In this document: positions 552-50,468 of the stretch, one piece after another | Numbering within the stretch: the stretch's first letter is position 1 | How the letters are laid out: each line of letters begins with the position of its first letter | From: Closterium sp. NIES-65 | Taxonomy: Eukaryota > Streptophyta > Zygnematophyceae > Desmidiales > Closteriaceae | Direction of reading: 5' to 3' | DNA: 64,000 bases | Assembly (NCBI GenBank): GCA_948144175.1 | Contig: CANXME010002149.1 | Span: 2,460,001 to 2,524,000 of the forward strand | Notes under the pieces: generated by a model | Seen by the model: the letters and a program-made list of their open reading frames with translations, nothing else | Databases searched by the model: none | Told to the model about the DNA's origin: nothing | Made by a program: the position numbers and the translations under genes

Positions 552-3500
552 TCAAGAAGTGAGCAAGTGAGGGAAAGTAGGCACAAGGCCTAGAACAGTA
601 CAGAAACTCTGATGGTCACCAGGCTGAAGCGCCTTGGTGAACACATCAGCAGTGTTGGCCCGAGTGGCCACGTAACGCAGACGAAGCTGACCACGCTGCT
701 GCAGCTCTCGAGCAAGGAAGTACCGCAGAGCGATATGCTTTGTTCTGTGCTCCAGTCTGTGCTCCTCACACAAGGCAATGGTAGCCTTGTTGTCGACCTA
801 CAGCACTGGAGGAGAACTAGGCCGCTCTCCCAGGTCGGTCAGCAGGTAGGTGAGCCAGCGTAACTCCTGTGCAACCATGGCTGTGGCGTAGATCTCAGCC
901 TCACAACTGGAGCTGAGAACAGAAGAAGAACGAGTAGAACGCCAAGAAACTGAACCAGAGCCAAGGCTGAAGGTGTAACCCTGTGACGACCGCTGAGTAG
1001 CCTGGTCGTCAGCCCAAGAAGCGTCTGAGTGCCCAGTGAGTACAACTCGGTCTCGTCCTCCAAGCACTAGCCCCATGCCCGACGTACTTCACAGGTAGCG
1101 CAACACCCTCTTAGCAGCATCCATGTGCTCCTTCCGGTGACGGCCAGGAGCTACATACCGTGCAAGGATGCTAAGAGAGTATGCAAGGTCAGGTCGAGTG
1201 CAGGTCATCAGGTACATGAGGCAGCCCACAAGCTCTGGATACGGGCCACTCGGCTCTACTGACTCATCCGAAGGCAGAGCTGAGAGCGAGTGACCTGTAG
1301 GCAGAGGACTGGACTGAGGCGAGGAGTACGTGAAGCCGAAGCGCTGAAGGACCTGCTGCACCATGTGTGACTGAGTCAAGGTGATGGTGCGCCGTGCTCT
1401 GTCCCGGGTGATCCGCAAGCCAAGATAGCTTGTCAGTTCACCCAGGTCTGTGCACGTGTGTCTCTTCTGCAGCTCCGACTTCACGTGGGCGAGTGCCGCA
1501 GTATCAGCAGTGGCAAAGACCAAGTTGTCGACGTACACGAGGATGTAGAACGGCGGCAGCGAAGTGTCGGTGCGTAGAAACAGCGACGGGTCAGCAGTAG
1601 AGGGAGCGAACCCAAGAGCCGCAAGTGTAGTCCTCAGTGTGTCATGCCACTCACACGGTGCCTGTCGGAGACCGTAGACTGGCCGCCGGAGGCTCCACTA
1701 GGTACCAGGAGGGAACGACCCAGTGAAGCCAGGTGGGCGGCGCAGCCAGATCTCCTCGTGCAGGCTGCCCTGTAGGAAAGCAGTGCTGAAGTCAAGAGAG
1801 TGGAGCTCGTAGTCACACTGAGCGGCGACGTGCAGCAGAACCCGAAGAGTGGTCATCTTCGGGGTCGGGGAGAAGGTATGGAAGAAGTCCACTCCCTCTC
1901 GCTGAGTGAAGCCTCGTGCAACGTAACGCGCCTTGAAGACAGGCGGAGAACCCGGCGGCCGCTTCACCCTGAAAATCCACATACCATTGACGATGTTCGC
2001 CCTAGGTGGGGGAACCTCGTCAATGTAGGTACCTGTGGACTTCCAGGAAGCCATCTCTGCGTCCATGGCTGACTGCCAGTGAGAGGAGTAGGGACTCTCG
2101 ATCGCCTCAGCGTACGATCGAGGAGTCGGGATGTCTGGTGCATCCGGATCTCCCTCAGGGGCAACTAGCATGGACACGAGATGAGGTAAAGCAGCGGCGA
2201 AGCACTCAAACTCCTTCTGCCTGTCCTCAAGAACGTCCGTGCCAAGAGCACACTCACCCCCGACGGACGGAGGACAGACAGACTCAGACTCAGCAACTAG
2301 GCTAGCGGCGTAGTCTAGACGACAGGTGGCAGCAAAGTCGACAAGCTCAGCAACTAAGGCAGACGCAGCAGCGGACTCAAAGGAAGGGTCATTGACAACA
2401 GTAGCGAGGAGACGTGTGACAGTAGGACTGGTAGCGCGAAGGGAGTCTGACTCCGGGTCAGCAAGAGCAGGAAGAGAGGACGCAGGAGGAGACGGGAGAG
2501 GGACACGCTGGGGAGTAGTGGAAGGACGCAGAGTCATATAGTGTGTGCCGGGGACATCAGGAGGGCGCTCACGCGGAACACGGCTAGCAGTGCGAGCAGC
2601 ACGAACAGGTGACGTAGGACGAGACACAGGCGACACAGGACGAGACTCTGGCTCACGACGCTCTGTAAGACCGCCTGTAGGACTTGTGCAGGGAGAAAGA
2701 CCAGGAAGGGGCGAGGCAGGCGGCAGCTGTGACTGCGACTGGACAGACGGAGGACACTCTAAGGAGGGAGGAGGACGACGAGGAGGAGGCTGACCAAGAA
2801 CCTGCTGAAGGAGCGGAATGAAGTACGGCCGCGGCCGTGCAGTGTCTCTAGAGCCAGAAGAGACACCAGCGCCAGGGTCCACAGCAGCACCAGCAGCAGC
2901 ACCAACACCCGGGTCCGCAGCACCAGCAGCAGCTCCAACGCCCGGGTCCTCAGCACCAGTAGCAGCTCCAACTCCAGGGTTAGCAGGACCAGCAGCAGCT
3001 CCAACGCCCGGGTCCGCAGCACCAGCAGCAGCTCCAACGCCCGGGTCGTCAGCACCAGTAGCAGCTCCAACTCCAGGGTCAGCAGCACCAGCAGCAGCGC
3101 CAACGCCCGGGTCCGCAGCACCAGTAGCAGCTCCAATGCCCGGGTCCGCAGCATCAGTAGCAGCTCCAATGCCCGGGTCCTCAGCACCAGTAGTAGCTCC
3201 AACTCCAAGGTCAGCAGGACCAGCAGCAGCTCCAACGCCCGGGTCCGCAGCACAAGGAGCGCCACTTCTGAGACTGCAGCGCCGTGCGTACCACTCTCGG
3301 AGCCGTTGGGGAGAGGGCAGCTCCCGCCTAGGAGGGGAAGCACTAGCCCCAGCTCCTGCAGCACTCCTAGCTCCAGAAGCACCTCTCATGAGGCTGCAGT
3401 ACTGTAAGTACCACTCACGTAGCTGCTGTGAGGAGAGAGCTCCTCCAGGTGTAGCACTCCCAGGCTCAGCACCTCCACACTCAGCACCCCCAGACTCAGC

Positions 3501-7856: not shown

Positions 7857-8125
7857 TGTCGAGAGTAATAAGAATGGGTAAGTTGAGAGGTAGAAAGGTG
7901 GGGCCTAGGCTTAGTAGCCTAGGCCCGAGCTTTAGGTGTCGAGCGGTTTTGTGCCTAGGTAGGAGTTCGAGTGAGTTGAGAAAAAGTTGGGAGAATGAGG
8001 AGCTTCACTATAGTTTTGAAGTACATATAGCAAAGGAAACACATAAGGTGCACCACCAATACAAAGTTTAAATAACTACACTACTGCTAGAACTACATGC
8101 AGTTATAATAAATATAATTTTGACA
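7857..8125 (-). repeat. T-A 3' LTR
   Basis: 269 bp, identical to 8900-9168 except A/T near 8064. It contains the palindrome-like CCTAGGCTTAGTAGCCTAGG. Confidence 0.92.
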
Positions 8126-8599
8126 TCCCCCCGTAACTGCATGCAGGAATAGCTAAGTGCAGAGCACAACCTGCAGAGGTACACCAACGAACAATAAAAC
8201 AAGCAACAGCAGGTACACCCCCTCCATCTCCTCACCCTCCCCCTTCCCCTCCCCCACACTGCTGCAGAAGCAGCAGAGAAAGGGGGAAGAGAGGAGAGGT
8301 GGAGGGACGGCTGCTTGTTGCCTCACACCCGCCACCCCGATACCACTCCCCCTGCTCCCCCACATCCTCACACCCTCCTCCCCCAGCGGCAGCTGCAGCG
8401 GTGGGACTGAAAGAAGGAGGAGGGGAAGGGAGAGAGGTGACGCCACACTCCAACACCCTCCACCCCCATACCCTCCTCCCCACGGCTGCAGGGAGGCAAA
8501 GGAAGAAGGGGGGTGGGAAGGAAGAAAGCCGCAGAGCGGCGAAGAGGTGTCGGTGCAGATGGGTTAGGGGCGGCTTCAGGGAGTGCAGGGGCGGAAAGA

Positions 8600-8790: not shown

Positions 8791-8863
8791 ACAAGGTAAA
8801 AATAAAATCGTCACGCGCCCTAGGCGCGCGACCGGAAAATATTAGCAGCGGAAGTGTAAAGCG

Positions 8864-8899
8864 GGCCCACAGGCCAGGACGAACTCAGCTCCGATAACA
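8864..8899 (-). promoter_or_regulatory. T-A primer binding site and post-primer hairpin
   Basis: On the minus strand, right after the LTR, TGTTATCGGAGC resembles the initiator tRNA-Met primer site TGGTATCAGAGC with two mismatches. Next comes GGCC TGTG GGCC (plus coordinates 8864-8875), part of a 16-base stretch CCTGGCCTGTGGGCCC that is identical in T-C. Confidence 0.65.
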
Positions 8900-9168
8900 T
8901 GTCGAGAGTAATAAGAATGGGTAAGTTGAGAGGTAGAAAGGTGGGGCCTAGGCTTAGTAGCCTAGGCCCGAGCTTTAGGTGTCGAGCGGTTTTGTGCCTA
9001 GGTAGGAGTTCGAGTGAGTTGAGAAAAAGTTGGGAGAATGAGGAGCTTCACTATAGTTTTGAAGTACATATAGCAAAGGAAACACATAAGGTGCACCACC
9101 AATACATAGTTTAAATAACTACACTACTGCTAGAACTACATGCAGTTATAATAAATATAATTTTGACA
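8900..9168 (-). repeat. T-A 5' LTR
   Basis: 269 bp, the partner of 7857-8125. The minus-strand primer site abuts it at 8899. Confidence 0.92.
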
Positions 9169-12100
9169 TGCTCTTCATAATGTTCACCCCGCATGGGCGT
9201 TCGACCAGCTCCCAAGTCCCCATAGCGATGAGGCTACGGATTTCTTCTTCCATGGCGGCCTTCACCGCCTCGCCCTTCCAGCTTGACAACGCCTCCTTCA
9301 CCGTCATCGTGGCAATGTCCCAGCGGTGTTCGGGGTCAGCATGCACGTCGGGGTCGAGCTCCGACAGGTCTTCATCCTCCTCGGCATCGTCGTACAGCAA
9401 GTCGTCGTCGACCTCGTCGTACACCGTGGTGAAGGTAGCTGGCGGTAGGCAGGCGTGGAAGCTCAACCGCTCCGGCGGCCGTCGAGCTCGACCTGAGCGT
9501 CGCAGCTCAGGCTTCGTGATCGGCACTTCCATCACGTCGCTGTCGGTGAACTCCTCACCCGCCGACTACTCCCCTTTCTCGTCGACGAGAACGTTATCGA
9601 CCAGCTGCTTCGACCCTTCGACCGGCTGTTCGTCTGCTGCTGCCTTCGACAACTCTCCTGTCGGCCGATCCGACTGCTGCTCCCCTGTCGAGTGTACCCC
9701 TGTCGTTGCCTCCTGTTCGACCGGCTCCCCTGTCTGGTGCTCCCTTGTCGTCGACGGCTTCCCATCCTGGTCGACGAGCTTGGCGCCTTGTCGACCGCCG
9801 GCGATGCCATGGGCCGGCGCCACAGGCGACGCCTCAAGGCTCCCCTCATCGACGGTGGGCGACACAGGTGCCGACCCAGGCCGATCTGCGACGGGGAACG
9901 GAGGAGCAAAGACAGGGGAAGGAGAAAGAGCCTCCACAACAGCCTCATCACCGGGTCCGTCGACTTTGGCGAGCAACGGAACTGGCGCTGTAGATGTATC
10001 CATTGGCGGGTGCGCCTGCGTCCGCTGCGACGCCGGCCCATACTTCGCCGTCCACACCTCCAGCGACAGCGTCTCGTAGAAGATCACCTCGACCGACGTG
10101 ACCACCTTGTTGTCGGTCAGGTCGAGCACTTCCCAGCCCTTGCTTGCTGGCGACACACCCAGGTGAAGTCCCCAGCGAGCCTTCGGCGCCAGCTTCCCAC
10201 CACGCTGCTGCTCGGGAATCATGAACTGCACCATGCAGCCCCACACCCGCGCCAGCGTAAGGTCGGGCTTCTGCCCGGTTAGCAGCTGGTACGGAGTCGT
10301 CCCCGGCGGCGTCGTCGACCGCTCCAAGCAGTTGCGCACCCAGACAGCTTGTCGTAGAGCAAGGTGCCACCAATGGTGCTGCACGCCCATGTGCAGCAAC
10401 ATCGTCCGCACGGACTCGACGGCCGTGCGCATCTCCCGCTCAGCCATGCCATTTTGCTGCGGAGTGTAGGGGCACGTCAGGTCGTGGACGATGCCCTTCC
10501 CGTCGACGAAGTCGGTGAACGCCTTCCCGAGGAACTCCCCTCCTCGATCGGAGCGAAGCGACAGCACCGACTTCTTCGTCTGCCGTTCCACCAGCACTAG
10601 CCATCGCTGGAACTCCCGCAGCACATCGCTCTTCTTGGCGACCGGCATTGACCATACAAATCGAGTATGGCGATCCTTTAACAGCAGGAAGTACAAGCTG
10701 CCATCCTTGGCAGCCACTCGAAATGGCCCGCACAAGTCAATGTGCACGACAGCCAGCGCCTCCGTTGCATCCGAGCCCGTGGCAGGGAAGATGTGCCGCG
10801 CCAGCTTTCCTCCGACGCACGAGACACATGGCGGGTCTGCTCCGGTTGACAGCGTGATGTCGAGCCCAGCAGCAACATCATGCTTCGCCGAGCTCTTGAT
10901 CGTGTCGACGCTGACGTGGGCAAGCCGCGCATGCATCCTATCGGGGGTCGTCTTCGTCGCCGAGACGATCGTCCGCAGAGCCACCACCTCGGTCGACTGC
11001 GACTGCGTCGAGCAGGGGCGAAGGTCGGTGCAGAGGACTCGTCCGGTGTAGCGCGCTCGACCGAGCACCTCTCCAGTCGCGGCGACGATCAACATCTCAT
11101 CGCCATCGCCCCACAGTAGCACGCCGCTCTCCTTCAGCTGGCCAGCAGACAACAGGTTTGCCTGTACGCCCGGAACGTAGAGTACGTCGGGGATGAGAAC
11201 CCGCCTCCCGGCCTCCCCTTGCAGAGCGACGGTTCCGCGACCCTCGACAGGCTGCAATGCCCCGTTGAACCCACGCACGTGCTTCACCCCATCGCTCGGA
11301 CCCATGTCGACGAAGACCGATTTCGTCCCCATCAGGTGGTGGGAGCACCCGCTTTCGAGCAGCACCGCCATCGGGTTGGCCTGCACAGCTGCTGCCACCG
11401 CCTGGAAGTCCTCGCCAGCCTCCGGTGCTAGCGAGACCGTCGGCTCCACCACGCCGACCATCGAGCACGACGCCTCCCCGTCGCCTCGGCTCTTGCCGCT
11501 GGAGCTGTCGACGTCCTTCGTCGAGGACGTTTTCTTCGACGCTTGCTTCTCCTTGCGCGGCTTCTCAACTCGACGGGGGCGATGACTGGCCGATCGACCG
11601 TGGCCTTCCTTGTTGTCGTCCTCGTCGCTCTCATCGCGGTCGGGGCACTCGAAGGAGAGATGGTCGGGGTCGCCGCAGACCCAGCACTCCCGCCGTCGAC
11701 CACCACCTCGTCGACCCTTGTCCCGCGTCGACCTCTTCTCATCGACGTCCTTCGTCGACCGCCCACCTCCGCTACCACTTCCGCCTGGCTTCCCGCGCTG
11801 CTCCTGCTGATAATTCGGCTTCGTCGGTGCAGCGTAACTCGCCTGCGGAAGGAACTCCGTGGGCTGCTCTGCCTCCTGCATCGCCTCATCCTGGAGAATG
11901 TAGCTGGTGATGGAGTCTTCGTCGAGGGACTCACGCGTGCCAGGCACCATCATCATCCTCTTCATGAGATTGTAGCTGCGCGGCAAGCCCTTGACGATGT
12001 GGGTGATGTAGGACGCCGTCGAGTATTCGGCGCCCGCCGTTCGCATCTCAGCCAGGATCCGTCGAGCACGGTTGCAGTAATCCGTCGCCGACTCCTGCTC

Positions 12101-15970: not shown

Positions 15971-16018
15971 GGTGGGCCCTAAGAAATCGGTCCTAGCGAA
16001 GGACCTGCTCTGATACCA
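15971..16018 (-). promoter_or_regulatory. E1 primer binding site, post-primer hairpin and GGGCCCACC box
   Basis: Minus strand after the 5' LTR: TGGTATCAGAGCAGG (16004-16018), complementary to the initiator tRNA-Met 3' end. It overlaps the start of a stem GGTCCT/AGGACC with a 5-base loop (15989-16005). GGGCCCACC follows (15971-15979). Confidence 0.85.
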
Positions 16019-16142
16019 TGTTAGAGAATGAATGATTGAATTGAGAGAGAAGTGAGTACAAGTACCTAAACCTAGAATTGTGTACCCCCTAAAGGCTAAC
16101 CCACTGTAGCCTAAACAACTACAACATATATAATGTTTGACA
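16019..16142 (-). repeat. E1 5' LTR
   Basis: 124 bp, the partner of 195-318. The target duplication TTCTG follows at 16143-16147. Confidence 0.93.
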
Positions 16143-17033: not shown

Positions 17034-17164
17034 TGTCAGAACATTATAGCTTATGCTTTTGTGTAGGCTGTAGTGGGGTAGCCCATATGGGGTACAACCC
17101 AATTAGGGTTAGTACTTGTACCCAACTCTTTCATAGTGCATTCATTCTCGTTCTAGTTTTCTCA
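17034..17164 (+). repeat. E3 5' LTR
   Basis: 131 bp. It holds ACAACCCAATTAGGGTTAG, an AACCC/GGGTT inverted repeat with a telo-box-like core shared by most LTRs here. Confidence 0.94.
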
Positions 17165-17210
17165 TGGTATCGAGCAGGTTCCCTCGTGGGAACTGTTCCT
17201 AGGGCCCACC
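17165..17210 (+). promoter_or_regulatory. E3 primer binding site, post-primer hairpin and GGGCCCACC box
   Basis: TGGTATCGAGCAGG abuts the LTR. The stem GTTCCC (17178-17183), loop TCGT, GGGAAC (17188-17193) follows. GGGCCCACC is at 17202-17210. E4 has the same stem with a different loop. Confidence 0.85.
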
Positions 17211-17239: not shown

Positions 17240-18050
17240 CGCGCTCAGTTCCTGCCCGAGTCGCGCTCCCCTCTCTCGACCCTCTCGCACCGCCTTAGCG
17301 GCCCCGTCGCGTCGCCCTCGCGGCCCCATCCCGTCGCGCCGCCCTAGCGGCTGCGTCCCGCCGCCCTAGCGGCCCCGATCCGCCGCCCTAGCGGCCGCGT
17401 CGCCTACTCCTGCGGCCCCAGCGCCGCCCTTCCCGGCCCCAATCCGCCGCCCTAGCGACCCCGTCGCCTACCCCGCGGCCCCGGCGCTGCCCTTCCCGGG
17501 CCCCGACGACGCCCTTCCCGGCCCAGCCCTGCCTCTACTGGCCCCGTCGCCTAGCCCTGCGGCCCCGGTGCCGCCCTTCCCGGCCCCGACGCCGCCCTTC
17601 CCGGCCCCGATCCGCCGCTCAGCGGCCCCGGCGCCGCCCTTTCTCGGCCCCGACGCCGCCCTTCCCGACGCCGCCCTTCGCGACCCGGCCCCGCCTCTGC
17701 TGGCCCCGTCACCTACCTCTGCGGCCCCGACGCCGCCCTTCTCGGCCCCGGCACTGCCCTTCCCGGCCCCGGCCCAGCCTCTGCTGGCCCCGTCGCCCGC
17801 CCTTCCCGGCCCGGGCCCCGCCTTCACGCGGCCCCGCCGAGCTACTGCCGAGCCGCCAGCGCCACCCGAGCCGCCCGAGCCGCCACGCCACCTGAGCCGC
17901 CCGAGCCGCCGTACCGCCGAGCCGCCCGAGCCGCCCGAGTCGCCGGGCCGCAGTTGCCGCCGAGCCGCCCGAGCCGCCGAGTCGCCGAGCCGCCGAGCTG
18001 CAGTTCCTGCCGAGCCGCCGAGCCGCCGCGCCGCCCGAGCCGCCCTGTCC
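17240..18050 (+). repeat. E3 GC-rich repetitive leader
   Basis: Tandem variants of GCCGCCCTTCCCGGCCCCG give way to GAGCCGCCGAGCCGCC repeats before the gag ATG at 18120. Long frames on both strands are by-products of composition. Confidence 0.75.
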
Positions 18051-18119: not shown

Positions 18120-19640
18120 ATGGCTACCCCAAGTGTCCTCGCTTTTGACGCTGAGGGTCGAGCCATTGACTTTGACGTCTGGGTAGATGACCTTCAGCTT
18201 TTCCTACAGTGCGATAGGGCAGATGGTCTCTCCCTCTTTGACCTCACCTCTGGTGCCTCTCCTGCCCCTGCTGCTGATGCTGACGCCACTGTTCCCTCAC
18301 AGTGGGCCACACGCGATGCTGCTGCACGTCTTGCTGTGCGTCGCCACCTGCCTACCTCTGAGCGTGCGCACTTTAGCCAGTACAAGAGTGCTCAGACCCT
18401 GTACGACGCTGTAGTTGCACGCTACTCCTCCCCTGCCACTGCTGCACTGAGCCCCCTCATGCTACCATACCTCTTCCCTGACCTTGCTGCCTTTCCCACA
18501 GTGGCTGACCTCATTACGCACCTCTGCACTAGTGACACTCGCTACCGCGCTGCGCTTCCTGCTGAGTTCTGCGCCAAGAACCCCCCCCCCCCCCCCCCCC
18601 CATGTACATCACTCTCTACTACATCGTCACCCGCCTCCCTGACTCCCTTCGCGTAGTCAGGGACCACTTCCTCTCAGTTTGCCCCACCACTCTCACCGTT
18701 GGCCTCCTCGAGAAGGCCCTCGTAGCAGCGGAGAAGAGCATAGTCGCTGTAGGAGCCTCTCGTGGTGACCCTCGCACCCCCATCTTTGAGGGGTGTTCCC
18801 CCTCCCCCCTTTTGCCCTCTGTTGCCTCTGCTGCTGCGGCCGACCTCGTTGGGCTTGAGTCGGTCGATGCGGCGTCTACCCCTAGCGGGAGACGCCGCCC
18901 TGGCAAGGGCAAGGGGGGCAGGGGCGCTGGAGGAGCTAGCGGGGGCGGTGGAGGTGGCGGAGGGAGTGGGGGTGGCGGTGGGGGTGGTGGCGGGGGTGGA
19001 GGTGTCGGTGGCGGCAGTGGAGGCGGAGGCGGCGGCGGTGGCGGTGGGAGCGGAGGTGGCGGAGGAGGCGGCGGTGGAGGAGGCGGTGGCGGAGGAGGTG
19101 GAGCTGGTCGGGGTGGCGCTGCGCAGAGGGACGGCTCCGGTGGTGGTAAGCGCCAGCAGCAGCAGCGCACTCATGACATCCCCCCCCCTCAGCAGCTCCG
19201 TTAGTGGTACGCTGCACGCCACCGGGGTGGGGGTACTGGTCCGTGCACCTACGTCCTACGCATCGGCGACCGCGCGGGTGAGCAGTGTGGGGGTGCGCAA
19301 TCCACCCAGCGCTGCTTTGGCCGCCTGACGGACGCTTGGCTTCAGCAGTTCCCGGAGGCCACGGAGATCCCCTGCTGGGGTGAGCTGTCTCGGGCGGGAG
19401 TAGCTATCTTTGACCTTGACTTTGATGCTATTCTTGCTGCCATATATGCTGTGACTATTAGTGATGAGGGTGACTGTTACCAGTGTTTTCCGCCCGACCC
19501 GGGCATTGAGACTGCTGCTCTAGGTACTGGTGAGGCTGCTGCTCTAGGTGCTAGCGAGGCTCCTGCTCTAGGTGCTCGTGCGTCTGCTCCCTCAGGTGTT
19601 GGTGAGTCTGCTCTCTCAGGTACTGCGTCGACTTCGGCCT
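18120..19640 (+). pseudogene. gag: E3 gag, frameshifted at a poly-C run
   Basis: ATG at 18120 gives MATPSVLAFDAEGRAIDFD. The capsid-like part is in frame to 18580. A run of 21 C (18581-18601) then shifts the frame. E4 has 10 C at this site and stays in frame. The frame resumes at 18602 (MYITLYYIVTRLPDS), passes VGASRGDPRTP and a polyglycine tract (18940-19110), and meets a TAG at 19202 where E4 has LREWY. Next is the zinc-finger-like site CTYV..C..Q..C near 19240-19315, where the usual His is Gln. The boundary with protease near 19640 is by position only. Gag would assemble particles and bind element RNA. Confidence 0.87.
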
Positions 19641-22600
19641 CCCACACCTTCACCCTTGATTCGGGGGCTTCTCGCTCCTTCTTTCGAGACCGCACCACAC
19701 TCACGCCGCTTGGTCGGCCAGTTGCAGTCTCTCTGGCAGACCCCTCTGGGGGTCCTGTCCTTGCTCACTTCTCCACTGTCCTCCCGTGTCCAGCGGCTCC
19801 CTCTGGCACCCTATCTGGTCTATACCTCCCCTCGTTCTCTACGAACTTGGTGAGTGGTGCTGACCTACAGGATGGGGCAGTTCACCAGTTCACTCCTGCA
19901 AGCAAGCGGGTGACCCACTGCACGGACGCTCGGACGGGCCGACACTTGGCCACGTTTACTCGTCGGCCGGGGTCGAGCCTGTACACACTGACCACTTCGT
20001 CTCCTCCTGTCCCTGCGTCTGGTCAGGTAGCTGCGTCGGGTCACGTGTTTACTGCAGCGTCCAGGTCTGGTCCTGAGTCTGCCCCCTGCTCGTGTCGCCT
20101 CCTGTCTCACGAGACTCTCCTCTGGCACCACCGCCTTGGTCACCCCTCCCTGCTTCGTCTCCAAGGCATGGCTTCTCGTGTCCTTATCTCTAGTCTTCCC
20201 CGGTCCCTCCCTCCCCTTCCTCCAGGGCCTGGCCCTACCTGCGTCCCCTGTGTCGAGGGACGGCAGCGGGCTGCCCCTCACTCCTCCCAGTTTCCTCCGA
20301 CAGAGGCCCCGCTGCAGACGCTTCACATGGACGTGTGGGGCCCTGCCCGCGTCCGTGGACTGGGTCACGAGCGCTACTTCCTGCTGGTGGTTGACGGCTA
20401 CTCGCGTTACACCACAGTCTTCCCCTTGGGCAGCAAGGGTGATGTCACAGAGGTGTTGATCGACTGGATCCGCGCAGCTCGTCTCCAGCTCAGGCAGAGC
20501 TTCGGCTCGGATTTTCGTGTTCTGTGTCTGCACTCTGATAGAGGCGGAGAGTTCTGCTCTGGCCTTCTGCGAGCCTACTGTCGTGCACAAGGCATCCGCC
20601 AGACCTTCACGCTTCCGGACTCTCCACAGCAAAATGGGATTGCTGAGCGCCGCATTGGCATGGTCATGGACGTTGCCCGTACGTCCATGATGCATTCGGC
20701 TGCCCCCCATTTTCTGTGGCCGTTTGCGGTTCGGTAGGCAGCGCATCAGATCAACCTTCACCCCAGGGTCTCCATGCCGGAGACCTCCCCGGCCTTGCTC
20801 TAGACGGGGAAGGTTGGCGATGCGTCTGCGTTCCGTGTCTGGGGATCTCGGGCGTTTGTCCGCGACTTGTCTGCGGACAAGCTGTCCCCTCGTGCGGCTC
20901 CTTGCGTCTTCCTTGGCTTCCCCCCTGACGCGCAAGGGTGGCAGTTCTACCACACCACCTCTCGCCGTGTTCTGTCCTCCCAGGACGTCACATTTGATGA
21001 GTCGGTCCCCTACTACCGCCTCTTCCCCTACCGCACCCCGTCCCTCCCCCCGCCGCCGCTCTTCCTCGTACCAGGTCCCCCCCCGGTAGACCCCCTCCCC
21101 CCTCAGGGTCCTGCCCCTTCAGGTGTGTCCCAGGTAGACGCAGTCGAGCCTGTCGAGGTCACTGGTGACTCTGGTGCTGCTGAAGGTGCTGAGCCTGGGG
21201 GTGCTGACTCTGGGGGTGCTGAGCGTGTGGGTGCTACGCCTGGGGGTGCTGAGACTGGGGGTGCTGAGAGTGGGGGTGCTGAGAATGGGGGTGCTGAGCC
21301 TGGGGGTGATGAGCCTGAGGGTGTTACGCCTTGGGGTGCTGAGCCTGGGGGTGCTACGTCTGGAGGTGCTGAGCCTGGGGGTGTGGAGCCTGAGGGGGCT
21401 GGGCCTGCTCGTGTGGCGTCTGGCGGTGCTGGGCCTTGAGGTTCTCCGTGTGCTTCGTCTCGGCGGGAGCCACTCTCTCCACAGGAGCTGCGCGAGTGGT
21501 TTGCTCGGCGCTGGAGACGTGCTGCTGGAGCTTGAGGGTCTTCGGCTGCTGAGGGTGCTGGTGCCGCGGGTCCCGGAGGTGTTCGTACTGGAGGTACTGG
21601 AGCTGCTGGGCCGGCGGGTGCGACTGGAGCTGGAGCTGCTGAGGGTGTTGGTGCTGAGGCTACTGATGTCGGTCCTGGAGGCGGTGCTCTTGTAGGTGCT
21701 ACTGGTGCTGCTGGAGGTACTGGAGCTGAAGGTGCTGCTAGCGCTGGTGCTGCCGCTGGGGGTGCTCGTGCTGTCCCTGCTGTGTCTGGAGTCGCTGAGC
21801 GGCCTCGGCCGTACTTCGTTCCGCTCCTTCAGCAGGTTCTTGGTCTCCCGCCTTCTACTGGTCATCCTCCTCCCTTAGAGTGTCCACAGCCTGTCCCGTC
21901 ACAGTTACAGTTACCGCCGGCCTCCCCACTGCCTGCTCCCTCTCCCTACACTGGTCCTACTGGAGGTCTTGCTGAGCGTCGTGAGCCTGCGTCTCGCCCT
22001 ACGTTGCTTGTCCGTCCTGCTCGCACTAATGGTCGTACTTTGCGTCAGCGTCCTCCTCCTGTCCCTGGCACGCACCGGATGTCTCTGCATCCGTCCACTG
22101 CTCCTCTGCGTGCCCCTTTGCCTTCTCCTCCTGAGTCCTCTCTTCCTGCTCTTGCCGACCCGGAGTCGGACTCTCTTCGTGCTGCCAGTCCTACTGTCAC
22201 GCGTCTCTTTGCTACTGTCGTCACTGACCCTTCTTTTGAGTCCACTACTGCGTTTGCCCTCGTTGCTGAGCTCGTCGACTTTGCTGCTCGCTGTCGTCTA
22301 GACTACGCTGCTAGTCTTGTCGCTCAGTCTGCGTCTGTCTGTCCTCCGTCCGTCGGGGGTGAGTGTGCCCTTGGCACGGACGTCTTTGAGGACAGGCAGG
22401 AGGACTTCCATTGTGTGGGTGCTGCTTCACCTCATCTCGTGTCCGTACTGCTTACCCCTGAGGGAGACCCGGATGCACTTGACATCCCGACTCCGCGCTC
22501 TTACGCGGAGGCAATAGAGGGTCCCTACTCCTCTCAGTGGCAGGCATTTATGGACGCATGCACCTACGTTGACGAGGTTCCCCCGCCTGGGGCGAACATC

Positions 22601-24039
22601 ATCAGTGGCATGTGGATTTTCAGGGTGAAGCGGCCGCCGGGTTCTCCGCCTGTCTTCAAGGCGCGGTACGTGGCTCGTGGCTTCACTCAGCGGCAGGGAG
22701 TTGACTACTTTCAGACCTTCTCTCCCACCCCGAAGATGACCACTCTTCGGGTGCTGCTGCACATACCCGCTCAGCGCGACTACGAGCTTCACTCTCTTGA
22801 ATTCAGCACTGCTTTCTTGAAGGGTAGCCTGCACGAGGAGATCTGGCTGCGCCGCCCACTTGGCTTCACTGGGAATTTTCCTCCTGGCATCCAGTGGAGC
22901 CTCCGGCGGCGAGTCTACGGTCTCCGCCAGGCACTGCGTGAGTGGCACGACACATTGAGGACTACGCTTGCGGCTCTTGGGTTTGCTCCCTCTACTGCCG
23001 ACCCGTCGCTGTTTCTGCGCACCGACACTTCTTTGCCGCCGTTCTATATCCTCGTGTACGTTGACGACTTGGTTTTTGCCACAGCTGATACTGCTGGACT
23101 CGCCCACGTGAAGTCCGAGCTGCAGAAGAGACACACGTGCACAGACCTGGGTGAGCTGCGCAGCTACCTTGGCTTGCAGATCACCCGGGACAGAGCACGC
23201 CGCACCATTACCTTGACTCAGTCACACATGGTGCAGCAGGTCCTTCAGCGCTTCGGCTTCACGTACTCCTCGCCTCAGGCCACTACTCTGCCTACTCGCC
23301 ACTCGCTCTCAGCTCTGCCTTCGGATGAGTCCGTAGAGTCGAGTGGCCCGTACCCAGAGCTTGTTGGCTGCCTCATGTACCTGATGACCTGCACTCGACC
23401 TGACCTTGCATACCCTCTTAGCATTCTCGCACGCTATGTTGCTCCTGGGAGACACAGACTGGAGCACATGGCTGCAGCGAAGAGGGTGTTGCGCTACTTG
23501 TGCAGTACGCCGGGCCTGGGGCTTGTGCTTGGAGGGCAGAGTCAAGTGGTCCTCACTGGGCACGCAGATGCTTCTTGGGCTGACGACCAGGCTACGCAGC
23601 GGTCGTCACAGGGTTACACCTTCAGCCTTGGTTCAGGCTCTGTGTCGTGGCGGGCTACCCGCTCGTATTCTGTTCTCGGCTCCAGTGTGAGGCTGAGATC
23701 TACGCCGGGGCCATGGCTGCACAGGAGCTTCGCTGGCTCACCTACCTGCTGAATGACCTCGGAGAGCTGCCTTGTTCTCCTCCAGTGCTGTAAGTAGACA
23801 ACAAGTCCATGCTGGCCTTGTGTCGAGAGCGGAGAGTGGAGCACAGAACGAAGCACATTGTTCCTCGCTACTTCCTTGCTCGTGAGCTGCAGCAGCGTGG
23901 TCAGCTGCGTCTTGCGTACGTGGCCTCTGAGGCCAACACTGCTGATATCTTCACCAAGGCGCTTGCGCCTTGTGATCATCAGCGCTTCTGTACTCAGCTG
24001 GGTCTTGTGCCTGCCTTGTCTCACTTGCTCACCTCTTGA
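19641..24039 (+). pseudogene. pol: E3 pol (protease, integrase, RT, RNase H), broken
   Basis: Protease motif LDSGAS is near 19659. HHRLGHPS (near 20125) and CVPCVEG form the integrase zinc site. The core motifs are DVWGP (near 20330), SDRGGEF (near 20533) and QNGIAERR (near 20625). The linker (21150-21780) has GGAEP-type repeats and SPQELREWF. RT has intact YVDDLV near 23055. RNase H reads ADASWADD near 23570. In-frame stops are at 20735, 20801, 21437 and 21533. A base loss near 23683 shifts the frame within RNase H, and TAA at 23792 replaces a Tyr codon before VDNK. Relative to E4, nine codons are missing just before TYVDEVPPP. The end at 24039 is TGA. Confidence 0.9.
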
Positions 24040-24278: not shown

Positions 24279-24409
24279 TGTCAGAACATTATAGCTTATG
24301 CTTTTGTGTAGGCTGTAGTGGGGTAGCCCATATGGGGTACAACCCAATTAGGGTTAGTACTTGTACCCAACTCTTTCATAGTGCATTCATTATCGTTCTA
24401 GTTTTCTCA
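24279..24409 (+). repeat. E3 3' LTR
   Basis: 131 bp, the partner of 17034-17164, followed by the duplication AAAAC. Confidence 0.94.
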
Positions 24410-27346: not shown

Positions 27347-27467
27347 TGAGAAACTTAGAACGAGAATGAGTGACTAAGGAATGGAAGTGATACAAATATG
27401 CAACCCTAGAAATGTGTACCCCATATGGGCTACCCCACTATAGCCTACACAATATTATTATTTGACA
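27347..27467 (-). repeat. E4 3' LTR
   Basis: 121 bp, TGAGAAAC to TTGACA on the plus strand. The inner neighbour CACCCCCATAGG is the complement of the polypurine tract. Confidence 0.94.
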
Positions 27468-27837: not shown

Positions 27838-27968
27838 TGTGAGAATATTATCTTATTGTTCTAGCCTGTAGTGGGGTGCTCTGTAGCGAGTACAACCCTT
27901 CTAGGGTTTGCTATTTGTATCCTCATTCTTGCTAGTTCAATCCCCTTTCTTTCTTCTAACTTTTGACA
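27838..27968 (+). repeat. T-B 5' LTR
   Basis: 131 bp. The core GCCTGTAGTGGGGTGCTCT to CTAGGGTTTGC aligns with T-C and, more distantly, with the E3 LTR. Confidence 0.93.
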
Positions 27969-28003
27969 TGCTATCAGAGCAGGTCGATCCCCTTGGATCG
28001 ATC
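27969..28003 (+). promoter_or_regulatory. T-B primer binding site and post-primer hairpin
   Basis: TGCTATCAGAGCAGG (27969-27983) matches the initiator tRNA-Met primer site with one change. A stem GGTCGATCC/GGATCGATC (27982-28003) with loop CCTT follows, about 9 bp with one G-U pair. Confidence 0.82.
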
Positions 28004-28047
28004 CTGTGGGTGGGTTTCCACCTCGCTTCCGCTGCTACCTTTCCTTC

Positions 28048-28189: not shown

Positions 28190-28610
28190 TGCTCTACGTC
28201 GCGGCCCCGCCCTACGTCGCGGCCCTGCCCGACCGTCGCGGCCCCACCCTACGTCGCGGCCCTGCCCCTCGTCGCGGCCCCGCCCTGTGTCGCGGCCCCG
28301 CCCCTCGAAGCGGCCCTGCCCGACCGTTGCGGCCCCGCCCTACGTCGCGGCCCTGCCCGACCGTCGCGGCCCCGCCCCTCGTCGCGGCCCCACCCCTCGT
28401 CGCGGCCCCGCCCTACGACGCGGCCCCGCCCTGTGTCGCGGCCCCGCCCCTCGAAGCGGCCCCGCCCTACGTCGCGGCCCCGCCCCGACCGTTGCGGCCC
28501 CGCCCTACCTTCGCGGCCCCGCCCTACCTGTCGCGGCCCCGCCCTGACCGTCGCGGCCCCGCCACTCGTTGCGGCCCCGCCCCTTGTCGCGGCTCCGCCC
28601 TCCAATCAGG
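28190..28610 (+). repeat. T-B GCGGCCCCGCCC tandem repeats
   Basis: Units of about 15-17 bases such as GTCGCGGCCCCGCCCTAC repeat over 400 bases. Long open frames in all phases are by-products. Confidence 0.8.
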
Positions 28611-29323: not shown

Positions 29324-29454
29324 TGTCAGAATATTATCTTATTGTTCTAGCCTGTAGTGGGGTGCTCTGTAGCGAGTACAACCCTTCTAGGGTTTGCTAT
29401 TTGTATCCTCATTCTTGCTAGTTCAATCCCCTTTCTTTCTTCTAACTTTTGACA
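29324..29454 (+). repeat. T-B 3' LTR
   Basis: 131 bp, the partner of 27838-27968, preceded by the polypurine tract and followed by CTGCT. Confidence 0.93.
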
Positions 29455-32400
29455 CTGCTGCAACTCACGAGCAAGAAAGTAGCCGAGAGCAATGTGCTTC
29501 GTTCTGTGCTCCAGGCGCTGCTCCCAACACAAGGCTAGCATGGCCTTGTTGTCTACGTACAACACCGGAGGAGAACGAGGCGGCTCTCCGAGGTCAGTCA
29601 GCAGGTAGGTAAGCCAGTGAAGCTCCTGAGAAGCCATGGCCCCGGCGTAGATCTCAGCCTCACAACTGGAGCCGAGAACAGAAGACGAGCGAGTAGCCCG
29701 CCACGAAACAGAGCCGTAACCAAGGCTGAAGGTGTAACCCTGTGACGACCGCTGCGTAGCCTGGTCGTCTGCCCAAGAAGCGTCCGCGTGCCAAGTGAGG
29801 ACCACTGGACTCCGCCCTCCAAGCACTAGCCCCATGCCTGACGTACTGCACAAGTAGCGCAACACCCTCTTCGCTGCAGCCATGTGCTCAGATCTGTGTC
29901 TCCCAGGAGCAACATAGCGTGCAAGAATGCTAAGAGGGTATGCAAGGTCAGGTCCTGTGCAGGTCATCATGTACATGAGGCAACCAACAAGCTCTGGGTA
30001 TGGGCCACTCGACTCTACGGACTCATCCGAAGGCAGAGCTGAGAGCGAGTGGCGAGTAGACAGAGGAGTGGCCTGAGGCGAGGAGTACGTGAAGCCGAAG
30101 CGCTGAAGGACCTGCTGAACCATATGTGACTGAGTCAGGGTAATGGTGCGGCGTGCTCTGTCCCGGGTGATCTGCAAGCCAAGGTAGCTGCGCAGTTCAC
30201 CCAGGTCTGTGCACGTGTGTCTCTTCTGCAGCTCGGACTTCACGTGGGCGAGTCCAGCAGTGTCAGCTGTGGCAAAGACCAAGTCGTCGATGTACACGAG
30301 GATCTAGAACGGCGGCAGAGAGGTGTCGGTGCGTAGAAACAGCGACGGGTCAGCAGTAGAGGGAGCAAACCCAAGAGCCGCAAGTGTAGTCCTCAGTGTG
30401 TCGTGCCACTCGCGCGGTGCCTGGCGGAGACCGTAGACTGGCCGTCGGAGGCTCCACTGGGTGCCAGGAGGGAAAGTCCCAGTGAAGCCAGGTGGACGGC
30501 GCAACCAGATCTCCTCGTGCAGGCTACCCTGCAGGAAAGCAGTGCTGAAGTCAAGGGAGTGAAGCTCGTAGTCACGCTGAGCGGCTACGTGTAGCAGCAC
30601 CCGAAGAGTGGTCATCTTCAGGGTGGGAGAGAAGGTCTGAAAGTAGTCAACTCCCTGCCGCTAACTGAAGCCACGAGCCACGTACCGCGCCTTGAAGACA
30701 GGTGGAGAGCCCGGCGGCCGCTTCACCCTGAAGATCCACATGCCACTGACGATGTTCGCCCCAGGAGGGGGAACCGCGTCAACGTAGGTGCCTGTGGACT
30801 TCCAGGAAGCCATCTCTGCATCCATAGCTGCCTGCCACTGAGAGGAGTAGGGACCCTCTACGGCCTCCGCGTAAGAGCGCGGAGTCGGGATGTCTAGTGC
30901 ATCCGGGTCTCCCTCAGGGGTAAGCAGTACGGACGCGAGATGAGGTGAAGCAGCAGCCAGACACTAGAACTCCTCCTGCCTGTCCTCAAGGACGTCCGTG
31001 CTAAGAGCACACTCACCCCCGACGGACGGAGGACAGACAGACGCATACTCAGCAACAAGACTAGCAGCGTAGTCTAGACGACAGCGAGCAGCAAAGTCGA
31101 CGAGCTCAGCAACAAGAGCAGACGCAGCAGTGGACTCAAAGGAGGGGTCAGTGACGACAGTAGCAACGAGACGCGTGACAGTAGGACTGGCAGCACGAAG
31201 AGAGTTCGACTCAGGGTCGGCAAGCGCAGGAAGAGAGGACTCAGGAGGAGAGGGCAGAGGGGCACGCAGAGGAGCAGTGGACGGATGCAGAGACATTCGG
31301 TGCGTGCCAGGGACAGGAGGAGGACGCTGACGCGAACTACGACCACTAGTGCGAGCAGCACGAACAGGCGACGTAGGACGAGACGCAGGCTCACGACGCT
31401 CAGCAAGACCTCCAGTAGGACCAGTGTACGGAGAAGGAGAAGGCAGTGGGGAGGCCGGCGGTAACTGTGACTGTGACTGGATAGGCGGTGGACACTGTAA
31501 GGGAGGAGGAAGACCAAGAACGTGCTGAAGGAGCGAAACAAAGTACGGCCGAGGCCGCGCAGCGACTCCAGACACAACAGGGACAGCACCAGCATCCCCA
31601 CCGGCAGCACCAGCGTCAACAGCACCTCCAGCTCCAGTACCTCCAGCAGCACCCGCAGCAGCAGAACCGGCTCCAGAACTGAGAGCAGTAGCCTCAGCGC
31701 CAACATCCTCAGCAGCTCCAACTCCAGTAGCACTCGCAGGACTAGCACCTCCGAGACCGGCGGCACCAGCACCCTCAGCAGCCGAAGAAGCACCAGCTCT
31801 AGTAGTACGCCTCCAGCGCCGGGCAAACCACTCGCGCAGCTCCTGTGGAGAGAGTGGCTCCCGCCGAGACGAAGCACCCGGAGAACCACCAGGCCCAGCA
31901 CCGCCAGACGCCACACGAGCAGGTCCAGCGGCCGCGGGCTCCGCACCCCCAGGCTCAGTAGCTCCAGACTCAGCACCCCCAGTCTCAGCAGCTCCAGACG
32001 CAGCACCCCCAGGCGAAGGACCCCCAGGCTCAGCACCCCCAGTCGTAGCACCCCCAGGCTCAGCACCCCCAGTCGTAGCACCCCCAGGCTCAGCACCCCC
32101 AGGCTCAGCACCCCCAGTCGCAGCACCCCCAGACTCAGCACCCCCAGGCTCAGCACCCACGCGCGCAGCACCCCCAGAGGCAGCACCCCCAGGCTCAGCA
32201 CCCGCAGCAGTACCAGAGTCACCAGCAACCTCGACCGGCTCGACTGCATCTACCTGGGACACACCTGAAGGGGCAGGACCCTGAGGGGGGAGGGGGTCTA
32301 CCGGGGGGGGACCTGGCACAAGGAAGTGCGGTGGCGGGTGGAGGGAAGGAGTGCGGTAGGGGAAGAGGCGGTAGTAGGGGACTGACTCGTCGAACGTGAC

Positions 32401-35289: not shown

Positions 35290-36200
35290 GTGCAGTGACA
35301 GAGGGGCTGTGCTCACCGGACAGGGTTGCTCGGGCGGCTCAGCGGTAGGGCGGCTCGGCAGCTCGGCGGCTCGGCTGCACGGCGGCTGGGCCGCTCGGCT
35401 GCAGGCCGACCCGGCGGCTCGGCGGCTCGGCTGCTCTGCTGCTGGGCGGCTCGGTTGTGCTGCTGCAGGGCGGCGCGGCGGTCGGCGGCTCGGCTGGCAG
35501 GGGCGGCTCGGGCGGCTCGGGCGGCGGGCGGCGCTGCAGAAGTTGAAGGCGGCGGGGCCGTAACTGAAGGCGGCGGGGCCGCAATTGAGGGCGGCGGGGC
35601 CGCAGCTGGGGGCGGCGGGGCCGCAGGTGAGGGCGGCGGGGCCGCAACTGAGGGCGGCGGGGCCGCAACAGAGGGCGGCGGGGCCACACGTGAGGGCGGC
35701 GGGGCCGCAAATGAGGGCGGGGAGGCCGCAGGTGAGGGCGGCGACGGGGCCGCAGTTGAGGGAGGCGTCGGGGCCGCAGGGGAGAGCGGCGACGGGCCGC
35801 AGGTGAGGGCGGCGACGGGGCCGCAGCTGAGGGCGGCGACGGGCCGCAGGTGAGAGCGGCGACGGGGCCGCAGGTGAGGGCGGCGACGGGGCCGCAGCTG
35901 AGGGCGGCGACGGGCCGCAGGTGAGAGCGGCGACGGGGCCGCAGCTGAGGGCGGCGGCGGGGCCGCAGGTGAGGGCGGCGGGGCCGCAACAGAGGGCGGC
36001 GGGGCCGCAAGTGAGGGCGGCGGGGCCGCAATTGAGGGCGGCGACGGGCCGCTGGTGAGGGCGGCGATAGGGCCGCAGGTGAGGGCGGCGATGGGGCCGC
36101 AACCGAGGGCGGCGACGGGCCGCAACTGAGGGCGGCGGGGCCGCAAGGGAGGCCGCTAGGGCGGCTCGACGAATGCAGAGAGGGGAGCGCGACTCGGGGA
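35290..36200 (-). repeat. E4 GC-rich repetitive leader
   Basis: Tandem units of about 24 bases (GAGGGCGGCGGGGCCGCA and variants) cover 35560-36140. CGGCTCGG-type repeats lie nearer gag. Overlapping frames of several hundred codons on both strands follow from the repeats and are not called. Confidence 0.8.
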
Positions 36201-36234: not shown

Positions 36235-36280
36235 GGTGGGCCCTAGGCACAGTTCCCTTGAGGGAACCTACTCGATACCA
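36235..36280 (-). promoter_or_regulatory. E4 primer binding site, post-primer hairpin and GGGCCCACC box
   Basis: Minus strand: TGGTATCGAGTAGG, then stem GTTCCC, loop TCAA, GGGAAC (plus coordinates 36252-36267), then GGGCCCACC (36235-36243). Confidence 0.85.
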
Positions 36281-36401
36281 TGAGAAACTTAGAATGAGAA
36301 TGAGTGACTAAGGAATGGAAGTGATACAAATATGCAACCCTAGAAATGTGTACCCCATATGGGCTACCCCACTATAGCCTACACAATATTATAATTTGAC
36401 A
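36281..36401 (-). repeat. E4 5' LTR
   Basis: 121 bp, the partner of 27347-27467, followed by ACTAT. Confidence 0.94.
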
Positions 36402-36711: not shown

Positions 36712-36882
36712 TAGGGAAAGAAGGACGATACAAGAAGGGTGTCGAGAGTTTTAAATGTACCCCCTAAGAAGTACCCCACTACAACCTAATAATACTATAA
36801 CCATATGCTAATTTGGGGGCATAAAAACATGCAAAGCAACCAACTGGTTTAAAGACCAGTTAAGAGGAGCAACAACACAACG
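36712..36882 (-). mobile_element. Copia 3' relic, LTR and polypurine side (split by E5)
   Basis: TGTACCCCCTAAGAAGTACCCC and the following bases resemble the E1 LTR on the same strand. GGGGGCATAAAAACATG and a TGGTTTAAAGACCAG stretch match the 3' region of these elements in altered form. It continues after E5 at 44065. I infer a decayed minus-strand element. Confidence 0.55.
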
Positions 36883-37015
36883 TGTCAAACTATAATGTTG
36901 CTTATGTTGTGTAGGCTATAGTGGGGTAGCCTATACGGGGTACAACCCAATTAGGGTTAGTACTTGTACTCAGTTTGATGTCAATGCAATCATTCTTGCT
37001 CGTTAGTTTTTGACA
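36883..37015 (+). repeat. E5 5' LTR
   Basis: 133 bp with the shared TTAGGGTTAG core. The partner at 43938 lacks about six bases and ends TTTACA. Confidence 0.9.
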
Positions 37016-37062
37016 TGGTATCAGATCAGTAGGTCCGTAGGACCGTTTTTTTCGGGCCCACC
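37016..37062 (+). promoter_or_regulatory. E5 primer binding site, post-primer hairpin and GGGCCCACC box
   Basis: TGGTATCAGATCAG is followed by stem GGTCC, loop GTA, GGACC (37032-37044) and GGGCCCACC (37054-37062). Confidence 0.82.
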
Positions 37063-37079: not shown

Positions 37080-37800
37080 TGCGGTTACCACGTTACCCCA
37101 CGCCCTGCCCTACACTGCGCCATCAGCGCGCGCCCTGCCCTGCCCTGCCTTGCATCACACTGCCCGTGTACGCCCTGCCCTGCCCCGCGTCGCAATGCCC
37201 CGCGCACGCCCTGCCCTGCCCCGCGTCGCGTTGCACGGCGCACGCCCTGCCCTGCCCCGCGTCGCGCTGCCCTGCGCACGCCCGGCCCTGCTCCGCGTCG
37301 CGCTGCCCTGCGCACGCCCTGCCCTGCCCTGCGTCGCGCTGCCTAGCGCACGCCCTGCCCTGCCCCGCGTCGCGCTGCCTAGCGCACGCCCTGCCCTGCC
37401 CCACGTCGTGCTGTCCCGCGCATGCCCTGCCCTGCCCCGCGTCACGCTGCCCCGCGCACGCCCTGCCCTGCGCGTCGCGCCCTGCTGCAGCCCGTGCGTC
37501 GCTCCCTAATGCAGCCTGCACGTTGCGCCCTGCTGCCCTGCGCGTCGCGCCCTACGGTAGCCCGCGCATCGCGCTCTGCTGCCCCGCGCGTCGCGCTCTG
37601 CTGCAGCCCGCGCGTCGCGCCCTGCTGCCCCGCGCCTCGCGCCCTGCTGCAACCCTCGCGTCGCGCCCTGCTGCCCTGCGTGTCGCGCCCTGCTGCAGCC
37701 CGCGCGTTGCGCTCTATTGCCCTGCGCAGTGCGCGCCCTGCTGCCCGCACCGCCCAGGCCGAGCCGCGCCGCCCAGCCCGAGTCGCCCTGCCCAACCCGA
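37080..37800 (+). repeat. E5 GC-rich repetitive leader
   Basis: Units of about 38 bases such as CGCACGCCCTGCCCTGCCCC repeat to 37470, then GCGCGTCGCGCCCTGCTGC variants to 37745. No gene is supported. Confidence 0.78.
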
Positions 37801-43708: not shown

Positions 43709-43937
43709 CTTTGCTTGTACTGTGATCGATATACTTGTACCTGCATGCTTATACCAGCTAGATTCTGATCACTGTACTGCTTGGTCCCATATCTATAACT
43801 ATGCATGTGAACTGGCCTTGTGGCCACATGCTTGTGCTCAGAGTGTGTGGTGACTTCGTGATCCACCCTGAGCTTGCTTTGCTTTTCTTGACTGGTCTTG
43901 TGACCCCTTGTTCTCCCCCACTTTGCCTATGGGGGTG

Positions 43938-44064
43938 TGTCAAACTATAATGCTGCTTATGTTGTGTAGGCTCTAGTCGGGTAGCCTATATGGGGTACAA
44001 CCCAATTAGGGTTAGTACTTGTTCTCATGTCAATGCAATCATTCCTGCTCGTTAGTTTTTTACA
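43938..44064 (+). repeat. E5 3' LTR
   Basis: 127 bp, preceded by CTATGGGGGTG and followed by CAAAG. Confidence 0.9.
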
Positions 44065-50435: not shown

Positions 50436-50468
50436 TGGTATCACCTAGGTTTGGATCCTGTGGGATCC
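50436..50468 (+). promoter_or_regulatory. E7 primer binding site and GGATCC hairpin
   Basis: TGGTATCACC abuts the LTR. GGATCC (50453-50458), loop TGTG, GGATCC (50463-50468) forms a 6-bp stem. Confidence 0.78.

Follow-up and report, generated by a model that had tools for sequence, protein, structure and literature searches.

Leaders of Closterium copia retrotransposons resemble a reverse-complement copy of the initiator tRNA-Met

A short perfect stem closely follows the primer-binding site (PBS) of E3, a retrotransposon in the genome of Closterium sp. NIES-65, and a GGGCCCACC box, the complement of the anticodon arm of the initiator tRNA-Met (iMet), lies 3' of this stem. Seven other elements within the 64,000-nucleotide window (the whole stretch of DNA analyzed here) also carry a stem near the PBS, raising the question of what these leaders descend from and which of their parts are maintained. 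To our knowledge, how LTR elements acquire primer contacts beyond the PBS is not settled.

Copia elements of the window

The window elements are Ty1/copia LTR retrotransposons, as judged from both their domains and their LTR/PBS structure. Copia-type domains (gag_pre-integrs, rve, SH3_retrovirus, or RVT_2) were found in 8 of the 10 window open reading frames (ORFs) scanned and the copia-type domain Retrotran_gag_2 in 1 of the 10; in E3, the integrase ORF (19451 to 20737) precedes the RVT_2 ORF (21782 to 23752). LTR pairs are 90.3 to 99.6% identical in seven of the eight elements, and the LTR pair search across the eight showed no partner for E7. In all eight, the stretch 5' of the PBS ends in CA, directly at the PBS junction. 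Three of them are in minus-strand orientation (E1, E4, and T-A).

E3, on the plus strand, has a 5' LTR of ∼131 bp (17034 to 17164; partner at 24279 to 24409, 99.2% identical). Its PBS (17165 to 17175) reads TGGTATCGAGC, a one-base-deletion variant of TGGTATCAGAGC that is common to copies at several insertion sites. It is followed by the stem GTTCCC/GGGAAC (17178 to 17193), the right arm of which, together with its flank, can be aligned with the complement of the iMet T-stem/variable region, and by the GGGCCCACC box (17202 to 17210), which is the complement of the 5' strand of the anticodon arm. E4 carries the same stem letters on the minus strand (36252 to 36267; PBS start at 36280), with its box at 36235 to 36243 and LTRs at 36281 to 36401 and 27347 to 27467 (98.3% identical). 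Also on the minus strand, the PBS of E1 (16007 to 16018), its GGTCCT/AGGACC stem (15989 to 16005), and its box (15971 to 15979) follow an LTR at 16019 to 16142 (partner at 195 to 318, 98.4% identical). E5, on the plus strand, has LTRs at 36882 to 37015 and 43937 to 44064 (90.3% identical), a PBS with one mismatch (37016 to 37027), a GGTCC/GGACC stem (37032 to 37044), and a box at 37054 to 37062. The E1 PBS and the E1 and E5 stems were placed by reading the sequence, and the boxes of E1, E4, and E5 by sequence reading and alignment to antisense iMet. E7 retains, on the plus strand, a PBS remnant followed by GGTTTGGATCCTG, a T-arm complement (together 50436 to 50468), and its GGATCC/GGATCC stem occupies 50453 to 50468.

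The remaining three elements are short. T-A (LTRs at 8900 to 9169 and 7857 to 8126, 99.6% identical) has its PBS and, by alignment to antisense iMet, complements of the T-stem, anticodon arm, and D-arm at 8844 to 8899 on the minus strand. On the plus strand, T-B (LTRs at 27838 to 27968 and 29324 to 29454, 99.2% identical) extends from its PBS to a D-arm complement at 27969 to 28036, including a TCGATCC/GGATCGA stem (27984 to 28001), an anticodon-arm complement starting at 28003, and the D-arm complement CTTCCGCTGC (28026 to 28035), which was placed by alignment to antisense iMet. T-C, likewise on the plus strand (LTRs at 47951 to 48126 and 49215 to 49390, 98.9% identical), has a PBS and an antisense iMet footprint that reaches the complement of the tRNA 5' end (48127 to 48195). 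Between their LTR borders, T-A, T-B, and T-C have 773, 1355, and 1088 internal bases, which is too few for gag-pol, and these elements therefore look nonautonomous. The preliminary description of this DNA had pointed to short stems near the primer site in all eight elements and to a GGGCCCACC box 3' of the stem in E1, E3, E4, E5, and T-C; the stems are present at or no more than two bases from where it had placed them, and so are the five boxes.

GC-rich tandem repeats with units of 18 to 162 nt, varying by place, sit after the leaders of T-B (28194 to 28601), E4 (35526 to 36152), E5 (37129 to 37746), and E3 (17393 to 17812), and further ones lie at 52157 to 52466. Within long element ORFs (31937 to 32207, 61178 to 61448, 2884 to 3260, and 40654 to 41161), there are also tandem repeats, such as GGCTCAGCACCCCCA, that measure 15, 33, and more nt. 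The ORF at 46118 to 47506 on the minus strand has DDE_Tnp_4 and Plant_tran matches and presumably encodes a Harbinger-type DNA transposase. ARAGORN found no tRNA in the window, and Rfam returned only matches below gathering scores, mostly to microRNA families.

Leaders compared with antisense iMet

Searching the 874-Mb genome that contains the window with a plant initiator tRNA-Met sequence as the query yielded 34 matches, of which six show 100% identity over 72 to 73 nt. ARAGORN called tRNA-Met(CAT) at six of the seven loci tested and Lys at one, and the two common host isoforms differ in the T-stem. One iMet-like gene (L034) is 95% identical to the query and was assigned the anticodon CTT by ARAGORN. 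Two of the 34 matches are leaders rather than genes and continue from the CCA complement: L039 matches antisense iMet at 90% over 50 nt, unbroken from the CCA complement, and L040 at 81% over 62 nt.

The window leaders were aligned to antisense iMet from letter 13 on, skipping the first 12 letters, and their scores were compared with decoys limited to shuffled, reversed, complemented, and sense forms of iMet itself. The eight leaders scored 20 to 40.5, compared with means of 13 to 15 for shuffled leaders and 10 to 18 for the sense, reversed, and complemented decoys. Per 1,000 leader shuffles, the observed score was reached 4 times for E1, 2 for E3, 3 for E4, 9 for E5, 21 for E7, and 0 for each of T-A, T-B, and T-C; per 1,000 tRNA shuffles, the counts were 5, 4, 1, 25, 27, 2, 0, and 0 in the same order. 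Part of the leader past the PBS thus resembles the reverse complement of the host iMet beyond chance in all eight window elements.

The tRNA parts that survive differ between elements and, where there are several (E3, E4, T-A, T-B, and T-C), run in backward-tRNA order. E1 keeps the anticodon arm onward to the edge of the D-arm, and E3 and E4 keep the T-stem/variable region and the anticodon arm. The best match of E5 is just the 10 letters GGGCCCACCA, and that of E7 covers only 13 T-arm letters. The T-arm, anticodon arm, and D-arm are all kept in T-A and T-B, and T-C continues from these as far as the sequence complementary to the tRNA 5' end. T- and D-arm complementarity of the kind seen in the Ty1-type extended primer interaction is therefore present, with the D-arm reached by T-A, T-B, and T-C; the E elements match only the T-arm/variable region and/or the anticodon arm.

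Genome-wide, ACATGGTATCAGAGC occurs 7,145 times (reversed control, 0). The first 100 of these places listed, not chosen by the box, were taken as a leader sample; 94 were scored, and the other 6, all of which bear the box, were left out because just 40 to 52 letters of each were available. Forty-eight of the scored places belong to a TRIM-like repeat and 46 do not. Among these 46 non-TRIM leaders, 38 scored ≥18 against antisense iMet and 8 scored ≤15; 30 reached a P value of ≤0.05 and 22 a P value of ≤0.01 on both nulls, and 8 leaders with scores of ≥18 fell short of a P value of ≤0.05 on one or both nulls (up to 0.11). A single one of the 48 TRIM-like rows was significant (L078), and there the end of a TRIM-like repeat is followed by an ordinary leader. 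The pattern of PBS plus GGGCCCACC has 2,322 matches in the genome and that of PBS plus D-arm complement 986, with no match to either reversed pattern.

Maintenance of the stem and the anticodon-arm box

Antisense positions 43 to 48 (GGGCCC) were matched in 89 to 100%, and position 50 in 97%, of the 38 leaders with scores of ≥18. GGGCCC is the best-conserved contiguous stretch in this sample, a ranking that has no shuffled baseline and is partly favored by the selection of the leaders by score. The 46 non-TRIM leaders were also grouped by LTR end or 3' flank into 12 clusters, i.e., few lineages, with one leader taken from each: GGGCCC lies within 45 nt in 6 of the 12 clusters (shuffled mean of 0.27, maximum of 2) and GGGCCCACC in 3 (shuffled mean of 0.00, maximum of 1). 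Leaders of the T-A/T-C class lack the 7-nt anticodon-loop complement, leaving the palindrome GTGGGCCCAC in T-C-type leaders; this loss was perhaps caused by slippage between GGG repeats. GGGCCC, and GTGGGCCCAC in T-C-type leaders, may have an added role in dimerization.

For the stem, the E-class set consisted of 73 distinct leaders with an exact PBS and box, obtained from 100 listed of the 2,322 PBS-plus-box matches. A perfect stem of ≥5 bp lies within the first 26 nt of the insert in 51 of the 73, and letter-shuffled inserts gave a mean of 3.3 and a maximum of 9; stems are thus more frequent than in shuffled leaders, as the preliminary description had expected of a genuine structure. It had further claimed that both arms change together, and here the classes differ. 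With the first 30 nt considered, box included, and substitutions re-dealt over a FastTree phylogeny under two structure-free nulls, E-class leaders kept a stem of ≥5 bp in 52 of 73 cases (null means of 6.8 and 6.8, maxima of 33 and 30, 0/500 each) and, where the insert is ≥22 nt, in 52 of 65 (null means of 11.8 and 10.9, maxima of 35 and 36, 0/500 each). All 30 distinct T-B leaders among 100 listed of the 986 PBS-plus-D-arm matches formed the T-B set: 25 have the stem (null means of 6.5 and 6.0, maxima of 28 and 26, 3/500 and 1/500), as do 19 of the 24 left when six distinct leaders are removed (2/500). By eye, the T-B stems GATCC/GGATC and GACCC/GGGTC differ by exchange of a U-A pair for C-G, and intermediates with mismatches occur too. 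In the T-A/T-C class, GGCC/GGCC is intact in 30 of 42 distinct leaders, contains G·U in 2, and is broken in 10, and two-sided change was seen in none of the 42, so that compensatory change is unsupported there. The stretch TCCTGGCCTGTGGGCCC is 80 to 100% conserved per column in this class, versus 29 to 76% in the flanks (41 leaders), and in the absence of two-sided change this points to conservation as sequence. Compensatory maintenance of the stem is therefore supported for the E and T-B classes and not for T-A/T-C.

Some alignment-based results count against covariation of the stem. On a MAFFT alignment that was picked by hand and has register shifts, a covariation test modeled on R-scape (not R-scape itself) gave no significant single base pair (E value of 9.3 for the best true pair), and RNAalifold did not find the stem on the MAFFT alignment, in which families lie one base apart in register. 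We therefore relied on the alignment-free stem counts under tree-aware nulls. The alignment was picked by eye: besides E4 and the tRNA segment, it contains 3 leaders from the genomic sample and 50 of the 73 distinct ones; counts based on it lean toward stem-bearing leaders (44 of 54 have the stem), and the test was repeated on all 73. In this alignment, the six stem pairs are standard in 74.7% and have a covariation score of 0.211, above 500 of 500 shuffles, and slid registers gave lower values (64.0% and 0.186 at −1). Two-sided pairs (4, shuffled mean of 3.7) and pair types (10, shuffled mean of 9.9) showed no excess over shuffles; under the tree-aware null, the observed value was 0.755, compared with a mean of 0.50 and a maximum of 0.696 (0/200).

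Folded alone, nt 13 to 50 of antisense iMet give a hairpin of 9 bp, G·U pairs included, from nt 13 to 34 (CAGGTTTCG-ATCC-TGGGACCTG), in place of which the fold of full-length antisense iMet is a mirrored cloverleaf with a 5-bp T-stem. The E stems occupy the site of this 9-bp hairpin, and, by eye, stems such as AGGTTCCC...GGGAACT and AGGTCCTT...AGGACC have U-A or C-G in place of G·U. The stems of the eight window elements, presented in the preliminary description as one conserved feature, are each there but are not one homologous stem, because GGATCC/GGATCC of E7 consists of the T-loop complement joined to other letters and thus derives from a different stretch of antisense iMet than the E stems do.

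Origin and possible role of the leader

We consider it likely that a copy of the entire primer iMet was once captured by an ancestral copia element, whose descendants kept the hairpin and the anticodon-arm box, with contact to the primer beyond the PBS being probable. The tRNA origin of the leader is well supported; for the hairpin and the box, we infer a function. The leader past the 12-nt PBS would descend from a reverse-complement DNA copy of the entire iMet, made when reverse transcriptase, on the tRNA-tailed minus strand during plus-strand strong-stop synthesis, passed the m1A58 stop and ran to the tRNA 5' end. The over-long strong-stop product would have been joined into the element, and later copies would take their leader from the RNA genome, like an inherited PBS variant. 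Selection would then keep a local hairpin, with the G·U pairs of the antisense copy changed into Watson-Crick pairs by differing routes, and also the anticodon-arm box (E elements) or a longer complement block (T elements) able to extend pairing with the primer tRNA past the PBS. The read-through step is suggested by analogy with retroviruses, whose plus-strand DNA normally halts before m1A58 and in which copying of unmodified tRNA continues to the 5' end, according to the accessible text of that work (PMC13191261).

Were the leader instead rewritten from tRNA in each cycle, its likeness to iMet would reflect a balance of mutation and copying. Partial regeneration of the PBS from tRNA is described for retroviruses, and strict inheritance of the PBS, not taken from tRNA, for Ty1 and Ty3, in the accessible part of the same report (PMC7472051). 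The PBS variant TGGTATCGAGC argues for inheritance in Closterium: at least 20 copies, including E3, are identical over 85 nt, and eight copies plus E3 have six distinct upstream flanks (one shared by L001, L006, and L008, one by L002 and L003, and one each in L004, L005, L007, and the window). Its occurrence in six insertion contexts indicates that the PBS survives transposition unchanged, so the tRNA copy is most readily viewed as having arisen in a rare event and been inherited thereafter. Moreover, leaders diverge from base 13, directly after the PBS, and we regard continual rewriting as very unlikely. A passive remnant of an old tRNA copy, with hairpin and box both unselected, would explain the T-A/T-C stem without compensation and the eroded footprints, the anticodon-loop complement GGTTATGGGCCCAC being kept, by exact pattern, in only one leader. 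It appears rather unlikely, however, given that the E and T-B stems exceed the tree-aware nulls and that GGGCCC is matched in 89 to 100% of the 38 score-chosen leaders (no shuffled baseline), whereas LTR stretches have diverged to 70 to 93%.

The maintained E and T-B stems would also suit a free-standing RNA signal, e.g., a dimerization or packaging hairpin that evolved independently and resembles the tRNA by coincidence, and the palindromic GGGCCC in the box fits as well, since dimer-initiation sites are palindromes. As an origin of the leader, however, such a signal is unlikely: the likeness to iMet exceeds shuffles in all eight window leaders, several arms follow in order in E3, E4, T-A, T-B, and T-C (in T-C with the tRNA 5' end), the loops of E-class stems, e.g., TCGT, TAGT, CTGT, and TTCGC, are mostly nonpalindromic when read by eye, and the conservation in T-A/T-C extends upstream of the palindrome. 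An open-access literature search for dimerization signals of the barley element BARE found no paper.

The LTRs bear on how often a whole-tRNA capture may have occurred. LTR stretches of E1, E3, E4, E5, E7, T-B, and T-C match pairwise at 70 to 93% over 41 to 125 nt; with L039 added, links of 70 to 93% extend over 28 to 125 nt, and not every pair matches. The T-A stretch matches L040 at 73%. E7, L039, and L040 were represented by the 150 to 170 nt upstream of the PBS. These links favor one or few ancestral captures; the match of L039, at 90% over 50 nt, could stem from a more recent capture or from gradual decay.

A role in starting reverse transcription, as put forward in the preliminary description, is plausible because stem and box lie in an apparent antisense copy of the primer tRNA. 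Cofolding of six genomic leaders with unmodified iMet predicted 12 PBS pairs plus 23 to 45 more and no leader hairpin. For the T-B and T-C types, none of 300 shuffles equaled the predicted duplex energy past the PBS; for the four E-type leaders, 8, 2, 1, and 2 of 300 did. As the leader hairpin yields to leader-tRNA pairs with the naked tRNA, hairpin and extended pairing may compete. We propose that the hairpin would hold the leader in a folded state up to tRNA annealing, whereupon the box would clamp the anticodon arm, helping to place or anneal the primer. A similar leader is also a possible reason why the short T elements could be served by copia partners. With the host tRNA as its known ancestor, the leader gives each change a direction, and comparison with antisense tRNA shows which parts were kept as sequence, re-paired as structure, or lost. 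An antisense-iMet leader would be a simple marker for other plant genomes.

Several known systems share parts of this arrangement, as far as the accessible text of each report describes them. Ty1 is likewise copia-type and primed by iMet; it has a PBS of ∼10 nt and extra leader complements to the T and D hairpins of tRNAiMet (Box 0, Box 1, and Box 2.1), and the boxes act in starting reverse transcription (PMC5454406, PMC4974528). In Closterium, by contrast, the complement is in tRNA order and includes the anticodon arm, the D-arm and the tRNA 5' end are reached in some classes, and part has turned into a self-pairing hairpin. The primer over-extension sequence of lentiviruses and spumaviruses is also tRNA-complementary, lies near the PBS, and fits over-extended plus-strand DNA; it directly adjoins the PBS and serves extension to psi55, whereas in Closterium up to the whole tRNA is represented, as hairpin and box (PMC13191261). 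The PBS region TGGTATCAGAGC(a/t)A(t/-)GGT of rice Tos17/Lullaby, also a plant copia system with GGT after the PBS, is common to an autonomous element and its dependent partner; unlike for the Closterium leaders, the accessible part of that report mentions neither tRNA-arm complementarity nor a hairpin (PMC3977881). Helenus TRIMs are LTR elements that also have tRNA-related sequence, there as a tRNA-like promoter in the LTR, whereas Closterium copia elements have an antisense primer copy in the leader (PMC10886601). Among open-access titles and abstract openings, we recognized no earlier report of whole-tRNA antisense leaders. Tentatively, copia elements might gain new cis-acting RNA by reading through the whole primer tRNA, with one antisense capture split across lineages into hairpin, anticodon-arm clamp, and D-arm clamp, and the Ty1 boxes are possibly remnants of the same kind.

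The TRIM-like repeat that shares the PBS (48 of the 94 scored matches; also at L147 and L148) is ∼230 bp or more in length and consists of an LTR starting with TGTCAGAGG, the PBS, an internal part, a G-run, and an LTR. From the PBS start to the next LTR, it measures 66 to 96 bases (readable in 43 of 48). Taken together, its LTR end, PBS, and internal part look like a Pol III promoter in which the PBS occupies the position of an anticodon arm, and we take TGGTCTAGTGG and GGTTCGAATCC to be its promoter boxes. Rfam and ARAGORN did not recognize the repeat at the four loci tried. The nearest named kind, going by the accessible text, is the Helenus TRIMs, whose tRNA-like part is inside the LTR (PMC10886601). 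At L147 (C10:900-2200, minus strand) and L148 (C10:848500-849700), TRIM units are found either in tandem or between two PBS copies adjacent to an ordinary leader and LTR end. The units look joined at shared PBS letters, and the arrangement is possibly a template-switch product.
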